IMG/VR virus record: IMGVR_UViG_3300042010_000248 | Span: 1 to 46,819 of that record | DNA from: a virus | Reading direction: 5' to 3' (one strand) | Length of the DNA stretch: 46,819 nucleotides | Shown: positions 1-41,777 of the stretch, one piece after another | How the letters are laid out: every line of letters begins with the position of its first letter | How positions within the stretch are numbered: position 1 is the first letter of the stretch | Notes under the pieces: model-generated | The model's input: only the letters and a program-made list of their open reading frames with translations | Told to the model about the DNA's origin: nothing | The model's database searches: none | Made by a program: the position numbers and the translations under genes

Positions 1-324
1 TCAAACCGGCATCCAGTCAGCCTCATATACGGAAAGGATTTCGTGCGTCACCACACCGAGCATCACGACGCCTTCCAGTGATTCCCCGTCAATCGTCTCA
101 CCCTCTTCCGTCACAATCCCGGCTTTGAAGTACTTCCCAATCATCGGGTAGCCGTCAACCTGCCAGGCGACCTTGTTGCGCGCTACCGGCGTAATTGAGC
201 TGTCTACCAGCGCAAAGCCTCTCGGCGTCTCAATCCTGATGGTTGACGATGGCCGTTGAATCATCAGCTTGTTCAAATCTATGCGGCTCTCAACGAAGTC
301 TGCCGCCGGTGATGGAAATCCCAT
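1..324 (-). CDS. UmuD'-like protein without the protease nucleophile segment
   Basis: 107 residues. The start is the ATG at 324, which follows the upstream stop by one base (TGA-T-ATG) and has GGGGAG ahead of it; a longer in-frame reading to 393 would run through the preceding gene. After the initiator Met the protein reads GFPSPAADFVESRIDLN, nearly identical to the first residues of E. coli UmuD after self-cleavage (Gly25 onward). It then aligns through VDSSIT and VDG to the end (LGVVTHEI). The stretch that holds the catalytic serine in UmuD (GDSM) is missing, and the lysine region does not match. It therefore looks like a preformed UmuD' analogue that cannot cleave itself. UmuD' partners UmuC in translesion synthesis; a role as activator or decoy for host UmuC is inference. 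Last gene of a LexA-controlled cassette. Confidence 0.8.
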   Translation of the reverse strand: MGFPSPAADFVESRIDLNKLMIQRPSSTIRIETPRGFALVDSSITPVARNKVAWQVDGYPMIGKYFKAGIVTEEGETIDGESLEGVVMLGVVTHEILSVYEADWMPV

Positions 325-325
325 A

Positions 326-565
326 TCAATACTCCCCGTAGTGGTAGAAACGCTGCCAGAGCTTGTTGTGGCCCTCTTCAGGTGATACGTCACGAAATGT
401 CATCACATGCTGCGCTATCCACTCGTTAGCGCTCTGGTGGCTCATCTCCCAGTTGCGCTTTGCAAGCTCAGCAACGAAGTCAGATGTGGACACCGTGACG
501 CCGTACCTCGCGCTGCGCCTCATTGCCTCATGAAATGAAACCCGTATGTCGCCGTAACGTGGCAT
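326..565 (-). CDS. Uncharacterised small protein of the SOS cassette
   Basis: 79 residues, mixed charge, no membrane segment or signal. I do not recognise a family. The central part (VSTSDFVAELAKRNWEMSH) could form helices of a helix-turn-helix-like unit, but this is weak. Its stop is one base from the start of the UmuD'-like gene and it follows the first cassette gene by 15 bases, so the three genes should be co-transcribed from the promoter at 847-875. The ribosome binding site is poor (GGGG six bases before the ATG). Its placement suggests a function in the damage response or in prophage induction, but nothing in the sequence shows which. Confidence 0.65.
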   Translation of the reverse strand: MPRYGDIRVSFHEAMRRSARYGVTVSTSDFVAELAKRNWEMSHQSANEWIAQHVMTFRDVSPEEGHNKLWQRFYHYGEY

Positions 566-580
566 GTAGAGCCCCCGCGA

Positions 581-817
581 TCACTGTTTATCTGTTTGAT
601 GTTCATCATGGGACATAGACGGCTTGGTCGCAGGTCCGAGTAAATATCCATCAAACCCCGGGACAAGCAATCTACCGGTATCTTCTGACCTGACCATCAA
701 ACAGCCCATCCTCCAGTCAACTTGCTGAACCCAATCAACGCGTATAACCCCGCCGTTTATCAGGCAGAACAGTAACTTATCACCATATCTGGACGCTTCA
801 AGGTTTGACCATCGCAT
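581..817 (-). CDS. Uncharacterised first gene of the LexA-controlled cassette
   Basis: 78 residues from the ATG at 817, chosen because GGTGAT lies upstream at good spacing; the longer reading from 844 would start inside the LexA box. The protein is rich in Trp, Arg and Asp and has no membrane segment. No family is recognised. It occupies the position of an SOS-induced first gene, such as tum in P2-like phages, but I see no similarity to Tum. An anti-repressor or UmuD-related helper role would be a guess. Confidence 0.65.
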   Translation of the reverse strand: MRWSNLEASRYGDKLLFCLINGGVIRVDWVQQVDWRMGCLMVRSEDTGRLLVPGFDGYLLGPATKPSMSHDEHQTDKQ

Positions 818-834
818 AAAATCACCATGAAAAA

Positions 835-850
835 CTGTATGCATATACAG
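835..850. promoter_or_regulatory. LexA box
   Basis: CTGTATGCATATACAG has the full CTGT-N8-ACAG form of enterobacterial LexA sites, with an AT-rich alternating centre and flanking A/T that match the extended consensus. It lies between the leftward cassette (start 817) and the rightward membrane cassette (start 939) and covers the -10 region of the leftward promoter. Repression of the UmuD'-like cassette until DNA damage follows from established LexA biology. Confidence 0.85.
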
Positions 851-875
851 TATATGATGGATTGAATTTGATCAA
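847..875 (-). promoter_or_regulatory. Probable SOS promoter of the leftward cassette
   Basis: On the minus strand, TTGATC (870-875) is followed after 15 bases by TATACT (849-854), or after 17 bases by TACTGT (847-852). Both -10 candidates overlap the LexA box, so LexA binding would block initiation. The promoter reads toward the start at 817. Assignment is by eye. Confidence 0.5.
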
Positions 876-35469: not shown

Positions 35470-35694
35470 TTATGCTGCTGACTTAGGTTCATTCCCGAAC
35501 ATTAACCAGCCAGCGGAACATTTAAGTGCTTGTGCAATTTCCAACAAATGGCGAGGGCGTTTAGTTTCGCCAGCTTCGATTTGCTGAAATGACTGCTGGG
35601 TAATCCCTGCCAGTTCTGCGACTTCGGACTGAGTAAGTCCAATTTCAGTACGTCGCTGCTTTACTCGCTGGGAGATGGTGTTTTCCTGTTTCAT
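35470..35694 (-). CDS. cro: Cro-like repressor
   Basis: 74 residues with a clear HTH of the Cro/C1 family (IGLTQSEVAELAGITQQSFQQIEAG). First gene of the leftward early operon, divergent from cI and separated from it by three operators. It resembles the CI N-terminal domain, so both probably bind the same TACAG-N6-CTGT sites. Confidence 0.92.
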   Translation of the reverse strand: MKQENTISQRVKQRRTEIGLTQSEVAELAGITQQSFQQIEAGETKRPRHLLEIAQALKCSAGWLMFGNEPKSAA

Positions 35695-35704
35695 ACCGTT
35701 CTCC

Positions 35705-35765
35705 TACAGTTTTATCTGTATTTCACTACAGTTTAGCCTGTTTGTCAAATACAGTATTTACTGTG
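35705..35765. promoter_or_regulatory. OR operators with pR and pRM
   Basis: Three 16-base sites of the form TACAG-N6-CTG(T): 35705-35720 (perfect palindromic arms), 35727-35742 and 35750-35765, with centres 22-23 bases apart. The leftward pR has a perfect -35 TTGACA (35743-35748) and TGAAAT as -10 (35720-35725), 17-base spacer. The rightward pRM may use TTGTCA (35742-35747). Repressor binding would cover both promoters. Confidence 0.85.
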
Positions 35766-35803
35766 AATATGCGCGGGCAATTTTTAATCACCAGGAGAGG
35801 GCT

Positions 35804-36496
35804 ATGAGCCTCGCAGACAGAGTAAGATCACGCCGTGAGACGCTTGGCTTAACTCAAACTGAATTAGCTGATATGGTTGGCATAAAACAACAATCAATCG
35901 CCGATATAGAGAAAGGCCAGACTCAGAATCCACGAAAACTATTTGAGCTTTCTGTCGCACTTCAGTGCTCACCGCAGTGGCTGAAAACCGGAGTGCAAGA
36001 ATCCAACGCTAACCTCTTAGAAGGTATATCTACGTGGGATGATGAAGAGCCAAACGAGACCGAGGATGATGTTTATCTCCCGTTCTTTAAAGAGGCTCAA
36101 CTTGCAGCAGGTGATGGTCGAGTGGTAGAGCTAGACAGTGACGGGCGCAAATTAAAGTTCTCACGAAGCAGCCTGAGAAAAATGGGTGTTCGGCCAGAAG
36201 ATGCAGCATGCATGACAGTCTGGGGAAACAGTATGGACCCCGTCCTTCCTGATGGGGCCACAGTGGCTATTGATACGAGCGCCAATGAGATTAAAGATGG
36301 TGAGATATATGCCATCGACCATGAAGGCATGGCAAGAGTTAAGATTCTCTATAGGTTACCGGGTGGAGGTATAAGGTTGAGATCGTTCAATACAGATGAG
36401 TACCCAGACGAGTATTACCACGGGGAAGAATCAAATAAAATCCGCTTAGTTGGGTTTGTTTTTTGGTATGCAGTAACCCGCCACCGCTCCAGATAA
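35804..36496 (+). CDS. cI: CI-type prophage repressor, self-cleaving
   Basis: 230 residues from the ATG at 35804, with AGGAG upstream; the ORF extends further but without a good start. HTH at about residues 15-37 (LGLTQTELADMVGIKQQSIADIE). Cleavage site Ala102-Gly103, catalytic Ser143 (GNSMDP) and Lys180 (ARVKIL) of the S24/LexA family. It keeps lysogeny and should be inactivated through RecA. Followed by a strong terminator. Confidence 0.95.
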   Translation: MSLADRVRSRRETLGLTQTELADMVGIKQQSIADIEKGQTQNPRKLFELSVALQCSPQWLKTGVQESNANLLEGISTWDDEEPNETEDDVYLPFFKEAQLAAGDGRVVELDSDGRKLKFSRSSLRKMGVRPEDAACMTVWGNSMDPVLPDGATVAIDTSANEIKDGEIYAIDHEGMARVKILYRLPGGGIRLRSFNTDEYPDEYYHGEESNKIRLVGFVFWYAVTRHRSR

Positions 36497-40334: not shown

Positions 40335-40882
40335 TTAAGCGATACATGTGGTCATTTGCAGAGAAGTTTGGTCAAGGCCTGTTTGTCAGTGACAAGGGTG
40401 ACTACGTCAAATACGACGACTACGCCGCATTGCAGGATAAGCTGGATGCGCTGGACAATTCAGCGCAATGGAAGCCTGAAATATGCCCGATAACAAGACG
40501 CCCGTTTTTCATGTGGATTGAGCACCCATCTGACGGCATGGTGCCGACATACGGCGGCCCGCTCGACAGTTACACAATACCAACGCTTGATAGCGATGGA
40601 GAGTTTTGCTGCGAACGTTTCGATCATGACGAAGGGTGCTGGGTTGATTCTGAGTGTGTCGATGTTCGCCTAACTAATGACCAAGAGCCTGAAATTGATA
40701 CCGCTTATCTGAACTCGGTGCGGGCAGATACGGTTGAAGGTTTCACATCTGACATCGTTCTTAAAATGCGCGAATCTGGCGCTGGCGCTTATGACTATGC
40801 GGATATTGTTGAAGCTCAAGGGCAAGAGTTGGTGTCAAGCCTCCGCTCCGGCACCCATGACACTGCGGATAAGGCGGGTTGA
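40331..40882 (+). CDS. 183-residue uncharacterised acidic protein
   Basis: N-terminus MIKRYMWSFAEKFGQGLFVSDKGDYVKY is shared by several enterobacterial phage early proteins. A central part has Cys and aromatic residues (ICPITRRPFFMWIEHPSDG; DGEFCCERFDHDEGCW) that could bind a metal. The C-terminal 40 residues are helical. Overlaps the previous gene by ATGA. Function unknown. Confidence 0.7.
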   Translation: MIKRYMWSFAEKFGQGLFVSDKGDYVKYDDYAALQDKLDALDNSAQWKPEICPITRRPFFMWIEHPSDGMVPTYGGPLDSYTIPTLDSDGEFCCERFDHDEGCWVDSECVDVRLTNDQEPEIDTAYLNSVRADTVEGFTSDIVLKMRESGAGAYDYADIVEAQGQELVSSLRSGTHDTADKAG

Positions 40883-40883
40883 T

Positions 40884-41777
40884 ATGAAGGAGCCAATGGT
40901 TGTCAGTTTTTCAGGAGGTCAGTCATCGGCGTTCCTGTGCGATTTCCTTTTGCAAAACTACTCGGATGCTTACGACTTTCACTTTGTTTTTGCTAACACG
41001 GGCCGCGAACATCCTGAAACTTTAATTTTTGCTGACAGGGTTGATAAACTTTTTGGCCTTAATCTGGTTTGGCTTGAAGGCATAACAAGCCCTGAGCACG
41101 GCGTTGGAATGTCACACCGAATAGTGACATTTGCTACAGCGTCAAGGAACGGAGAGCCATTTGAACAACTGATAAGTCTAGAAGGAATACCAAACGTATC
41201 CCGGCAGAAATGCAGTGATTATTTAAAGACCCAAACAATCAGATCATGGATGCGTGCTAACAACCTAGCCAGGCATGGCTGGTCTGCCAAAACCGCAATA
41301 GGTATGCGCGCTGATGAACCCGATCGCGCTTCAATGGATAAGGCGTCCACCAAGCGATATAACCTGGTATATCCATTATGTCACTGGGGCTCTTTTGATA
41401 AGCAGGATGTAAATGATTTTTGGGATGCAATGCCATTCAAATTGAATATCCCGTCTCATTACGGCAACTGCTTAACCTGTTTTAAAAAAAGTAACGCAAA
41501 ACTTTATTTAATTGCTCATGAGCATCCTGAATGGTTTGCATGGAATCGTGATATGGAGATACATCACGGGATGGTTAAAGCCAGGGATGGTCATACGTGG
41601 TGGCGCGGAAAGAGGAATACAGACCAACTTATCCAGGATGCTCAACTCCAGGATAAACAGCGTCTTATTTATCTGACTAAATCCAACGCTGATGACGGAG
41701 ATGGATGCGTATCCTCATGTGAACCGTTTCAGAACGTCGAAGACGACGTAACTTTTGAAAAGGAAAATGCAGCATGA
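40884..41777 (+). CDS. PAPS reductase-like adenine nucleotide alpha hydrolase
   Basis: 297 residues from the ATG at 40884; the longer reading from 40734 overlaps the previous gene. The PP-loop is SFSGGQSSAF, then HFVFANTGREHPETLIFADRV, the fold of PAPS reductase and related enzymes that activate a substrate with ATP. Cys residues in RQKCSDYL and in GNCLTCFKKS give a Cys...CxxC set that could hold an iron-sulphur cluster. Cellular homologues reduce sulphate or add sulphur; the phage substrate is unknown. No Dnd or queuosine gene cluster is nearby. Confidence 0.85.
   Translation: MKEPMVVSFSGGQSSAFLCDFLLQNYSDAYDFHFVFANTGREHPETLIFADRVDKLFGLNLVWLEGITSPEHGVGMSHRIVTFATASRNGEPFEQLISLEGIPNVSRQKCSDYLKTQTIRSWMRANNLARHGWSAKTAIGMRADEPDRASMDKASTKRYNLVYPLCHWGSFDKQDVNDFWDAMPFKLNIPSHYGNCLTCFKKSNAKLYLIAHEHPEWFAWNRDMEIHHGMVKARDGHTWWRGKRNTDQLIQDAQLQDKQRLIYLTKSNADDGDGCVSSCEPFQNVEDDVTFEKENAA

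Follow-up and report, generated by a model that had tools for sequence, protein, structure and literature searches.

The window, that is the whole 46,819-nucleotide stretch of DNA analysed (IMG/VR virus record IMGVR_UViG_3300042010_000248), opens with a short UmuD′-like gene on the minus strand. The gene runs from position 324 to position 1, with its TGA stop at 3..1, and encodes a protein of 107 residues. It belongs to a three-gene operon preceded by a LexA box. The features of the locus are the following.

1..324, minus strand: UmuD′-like protein of 107 aa, without the Ser/Lys dyad (phmmer, phrog_3469, AlphaFold2 fold, joint alignment)
322..339, minus strand: start codon and Shine-Dalgarno sequence GGGGAG, with the TGA of the partner gene 1 base upstream (sequence)
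326..565, minus strand: partner gene, 79 aa, phrog_3893 (profile match)
581..844, minus strand: small extra ORF downstream of the LexA box and upstream of the partner gene, about 78 aa from a later ATG (open reading frame)
833..852, minus strand: LexA box TACTGTATATGCATACAGTT, 17/20 to the consensus, before the three-gene operon (consensus scoring)

The ATG of the UmuD′-like gene is preceded at good spacing by GGGGAG, and translational coupling with the partner gene, whose TGA lies one base upstream, is likely. The protein opens with M-GFPSPAADFVESRIDLN, the residue after Met being the one that is exposed by cleavage of UmuD; its N-terminal letters are MGFPSPAADFVESRIDLNKLMIQRPSSTIRIETPRGFALVDSSITPV..., and the start is also given as MGFPSPAADFVESRIDLN. 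With phmmer, UmuD′ and UmuD were matched from residue 2 of the window protein, which aligns with residue 1 of UmuD′ and corresponds to Gly25 of E. coli UmuD (E-value of 2e-9). The minus-strand frame and this alignment confirm what a sequence-only reading of this DNA had proposed, namely a phage gene that starts at the UmuD′ cleavage point. An in-frame GTG at position 393 was considered as an alternative start and rejected: the reading frame would then overlap with that of the partner gene, and the added residues show no similarity to the UmuD arm. Since many relatives carry an in-frame stop within a few codons upstream of the equivalent Met, no UmuD arm is encoded.

The window protein matches the family phrog_3469 (“UmuD-like protein”) with an E-value of 1.3e-21, over residues 1–103 and profile positions 1–102 of 106. 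A tblastn search retrieved 96 phage records, and 59 of the 60 matches listed begin at query residue 1. Together with the full-length profile match, this indicates that the similarity is not due to chance. At least 570 IMG/VR stretches and 144 stretches in species genomes also carry a family member, and the family occurs on plasmids as well. These last two scans used the pattern MGFPSPAxD and were rejected as evidence of start conservation, which was assessed again with core-only patterns and tblastn. Enterobacterial phages and prophages thus carry it widely. The closest named phage, Pantoea phage PA-1 (L002), carries at about 2501-2743 a remnant that lacks the N-terminus and the start.

The phage clusters were aligned jointly with 20 host UmuD sequences drawn from genomes of the family. 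Ser60 is a Ser in all 20 host proteins, and the segment that bears it is deleted in all 72 short tail-bearing clusters. Lys97 is likewise invariant in the host proteins (20/20) and is a Lys in none of the 72 short clusters, where the position is occupied by Ala (37), Gly (29) or other residues; the window protein has a Gly. Autocleavage by members of the short clade, the window protein included, is therefore excluded on sequence grounds, as the sequence-only reading had held. Its description of a deleted Ser-bearing segment stands for the Ser loop itself (about 11 residues) and had to be extended, because the window protein also lacks about 10 residues elsewhere, around UmuD positions 105–118. 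No match to Pfam Peptidase_S24 (PF00717) was obtained with this protein at an E-value of 0.001. Of the 12 clusters of long, HumD-like phage forms, 3 keep Ser60 and 3 keep Lys97.

The window protein is predicted to have the UmuD′ fold. An AlphaFold2 model computed from a 98-row alignment reached a pLDDT of 87.4, residues 1–10, which form the tail, being less certain (mean of 62). UmuD′ is the best structural match of this monomer model: the E. coli structure 1umu superimposes with a Z score of 10.8 and an rmsd of 2.1 over 88 residues (34% identity), and all of the top five Foldseek matches are UmuD or UmuD′. The UmuD′/UmuD Z scores are close to or above those of LexA and repressor C-domains (10.1 for M. 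tuberculosis LexA). This predicted fold supports the earlier reading of the protein as a ready-made UmuD′.

Conservation of the N-terminal match, on which that proposal also depended, was examined in the core-only scans. These retrieved 136 loci, of which 55 encode M-GFPSPA and one more does so from a GTG start; MS-GFPSPA is found in 11 and MGFVSPA in 6, and nearly all other loci are tail-less. The exact UmuD′ N-terminus is therefore usual, not absolute, in the short family. GFPSPA is identical in the 20 host UmuD proteins and in nearly all tail-bearing short clusters. All of its codons vary synonymously among the 60 distinct tail-bearing proteins of the core-only set. Because the amino acids are fixed while the codons are mixed, in a protein that cannot be cleaved, the tail is held by selection that does not act through self-cleavage. 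A family that has neither arm nor protease and yet keeps a near-identical tail indicates that the tail matters beyond cleavage. The same data bear on the idea that the gene is a decaying, functionless remnant of UmuD. Such remnants do exist, as in phage PA-1, but decay is very improbable here, given the open frame, the Shine-Dalgarno sequence, the LexA box and, in about 70 clusters, a tail whose residues stay invariant while its codons differ.

A tree was computed from the core without the tail (91 columns; its deeper forks are poorly resolved). Host UmuD and HumD are split from all short forms with 100/100 support, and the tail-less forms occupy three separate positions within the short clade.

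The LexA box was scored against the pattern CTGT-N8-ACAG. A box of at least 15/20 is present upstream in 81 of 94 clusters, compared with 8 of 615 random 900-bp stretches (1.3%). It lies at about -35 where the UmuD′-like gene comes first and at about -277 where the gene for the 79-aa partner comes before it, so that the box stands before whichever gene opens the operon. The small ORF at 581-844, whose first ATG is inside the box, had no match in phage records; the same box spacing around this ORF is seen in a second locus (L012). At 35675-36496 the prophage has a gene for a CI-type repressor that carries an S24 domain, and prophage induction is therefore probably itself SOS-linked. No defence family was matched with PADLOC. 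Two further genes of the window were noted. The first, at 1076-2239 on the plus strand, encodes a hydrophobic, probably membrane protein of 387 aa without a family match; relatives carry acyltransferases at this position, between the tail fibre and the SOS operon. The second is a phosphoadenosine phosphosulfate reductase-like gene of the early region (40734-41777, plus strand, phrog_424).

The phrog_3893 gene is the next gene upstream, closely spaced, in 55 of the 72 short clusters that bear the tail, and it also precedes some long HumD forms. Its model is winged-helix-like, with weak structure matches (best Z score of 6.0), and no Pfam family was found above cut-off. This recurrent neighbour and the mostly diverged surface of the short protein could suggest that the UmuD fold has been repurposed for another target, such as the RecA filament, DinB, Pol III subunits or a repressor; the phrog_3893 protein would then be a co-regulator. 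Interactions with RecA, DinB and Pol III subunits have been described for the products of umuD as well (PMC5342242). We regard such repurposing as improbable, since the linkage of umuC in two lineages, described below, and the tail common to host UmuD point to Pol V.

In IMG/VR, the core-only searches revealed umuC near 48 tail-less loci, nearly always directly downstream. In these pairs the stop of the UmuD′-like gene overlaps or touches the umuC start, and a LexA box precedes the first gene by about 35 bp. The complete Enterobacter phage CobraSix (gp29-gp30, L341) has the same arrangement of a tail-less UmuD′-like gene and umuC. Preceded by a LexA box, a tail-less short UmuD′ gene and the umuC directly after it (L201:1724-3297, minus strand; L205-L260; L341) have the form of a compact phage Pol V-like operon. 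The linked phage UmuC proteins keep their C-terminal region, reported as the main UmuD′ binding site of UmuC (PMC6511836). A umuC gene adjoins none of the 73 core-retrieved loci with tail-bearing forms and none of the loci L002-L171, many of these contigs ending soon after the gene. The association between absence of the tail and presence of umuC gave a Fisher value of 2e-5 on clusters, which are not independent of each other; on the tree, umuC linkage corresponds to two of the three lineages of tail loss. The third tail-less lineage (L261-L270; L202:2401-2715, minus strand) follows the partner gene, mostly with no umuC nearby, and its nearest tail-bearing relatives have MGFVSPA. A strict rule by which the tail would be present only where umuC is absent was accordingly rejected. 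Two prophage edges (L199:22-1364 and L200:903-2904) show a further arrangement, in which umuD-umuC, or umuC alone in view, is followed by a tail-less short umuD′-like gene adjoining the integrase.

The linkage to umuC argues most strongly for a short core that would work with UmuC, and it comes directly from tail-less sister lineages, not from tail-bearing forms. In the host, UmuC was found in 50 of 50 carrier genomes, compared with 97 of 198 genomes of the order and 99 of 198 of the family. Among the family genomes listed, those without UmuC are mostly small and reduced; nearly all of normal size have it, and host UmuC is therefore weakly informative.

UmuC activation requires UmuD to lose its arm. 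Taken together, the data make it probable that this Pantoea prophage gene of the window is SOS-induced and encodes a UmuD′ that is constitutively activated and acts with UmuC. The earlier suggestion that the phage supplies ready UmuD′ to UmuC is thus partly supported, by the predicted fold, the LexA box, the tail, the host UmuC of the carriers and the tail-less umuC operons. LexA would repress the operon, and DNA damage, which probably induces the prophage as well, would free it. Removal of the Met would leave the Gly25 equivalent at the N-terminus, and RecA-stimulated cleavage would not be needed. The UmuD′-like core and the free GFPSPAxDYxE tail would then bind host UmuC, an association expected to favour translesion synthesis by Pol V where phage or host DNA is damaged, possibly to the benefit of the phage. 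Most likely, the standalone forms serve host UmuC and the linked forms the phage's own UmuC.

The short protein might also be inhibitory, through formation of UmuD/UmuD′ heterodimers. As a dominant partner, it would pair with host UmuD or UmuD′ and divert it into inactive or ClpXP-degraded heterodimers, which would damp Pol V at prophage induction. UmuD and UmuD′ do prefer heterodimers, in which the UmuD′ subunit is then degraded by ClpXP (PMC5342242), and a core about 30% identical to host UmuD′ could pair without full activity. However, a Pol V subunit accounts better for the strict retention of the tail and for the sister lineages linked to umuC, and P1 HumD is itself reported as functional (PMC7092418; annotation of the P1 record). 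We therefore consider the dominant partner unlikely and retain the activated UmuD′ as the preferred explanation. If it holds, many Enterobacterales prophages (Pantoea, Erwinia, Klebsiella, Enterobacter and others) may raise SOS mutagenesis without RecA-dependent cleavage. More tentatively, the GFPSPAxDYxE tail could be a docking element to host Pol V that becomes dispensable once the phage brings its own adjacent UmuC; the family would then be a natural separation of core and tail, and the tail-less UmuD′-UmuC operons a minimal, cleavage-free phage Pol V. The tail-less umuC-linked lineages provide matched natural variants with which the role of the UmuD′ tail can be tested.

A pre-cut UmuD′ supplied by a phage is already known from P1 HumD (1999). 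HumD is presented as an already activated short UmuD (PMC7092418) and, by the title of a reference in PMC11541004, as a functional UmuD′ homologue that facilitates SOS mutagenesis; PMC9603915 gives it as LexA-regulated, and the P1 record annotates humD as complementing UmuD′. What is new here is the minimal protease-free clade, the conservation of its tail and the tail-less UmuD′-UmuC operons; in the open-access literature, we found no paper on these operons or on the short clade.

Like the window gene, P1 HumD (NF051876, 129 aa) starts with M-GFPSPA at the UmuD cleavage point, has a LexA box upstream and stands alone in the phage, with no umuC. Unlike the window protein, it keeps the Ser-loop and second segments and lies on the host-UmuD side of the 100/100 branch. 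The window gene has the start at the UmuD′ N-terminus that characterizes NF051876, and its product scores 33.2 bits against that family, over residues 1–30 only, where the curated cut-off is 120. Against UmuD NF007621, whose Ser60 and Lys97 dyad it lacks, it scores 36 bits for a cut-off of 110. The window protein probably acts like HumD although it falls below the HumD cut-off. With host UmuD/UmuD′, a subunit of Pol V (E. coli 1UMU, 8GMT), it has in common the fold, the GFPSPAxD[YF]xE tail and the LexA box; it differs in having no N-terminal arm, Cys24-Gly25 site, Ser60 or Lys97, in its two internal deletions and in a C-terminal extension. CobraSix gp29-gp30 and the 48 IMG/VR loci share the short core and the LexA box with the window family, but have lost the GFPSPAxDY tail and carry their own umuC directly downstream. 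The PHROG 3469 proteins (mEp390, phiES15, Erwinia 59 and others) agree with the window gene in start, in length and in the order of genes beside the integrase; nothing essential differs, and the window protein is a member of this family.
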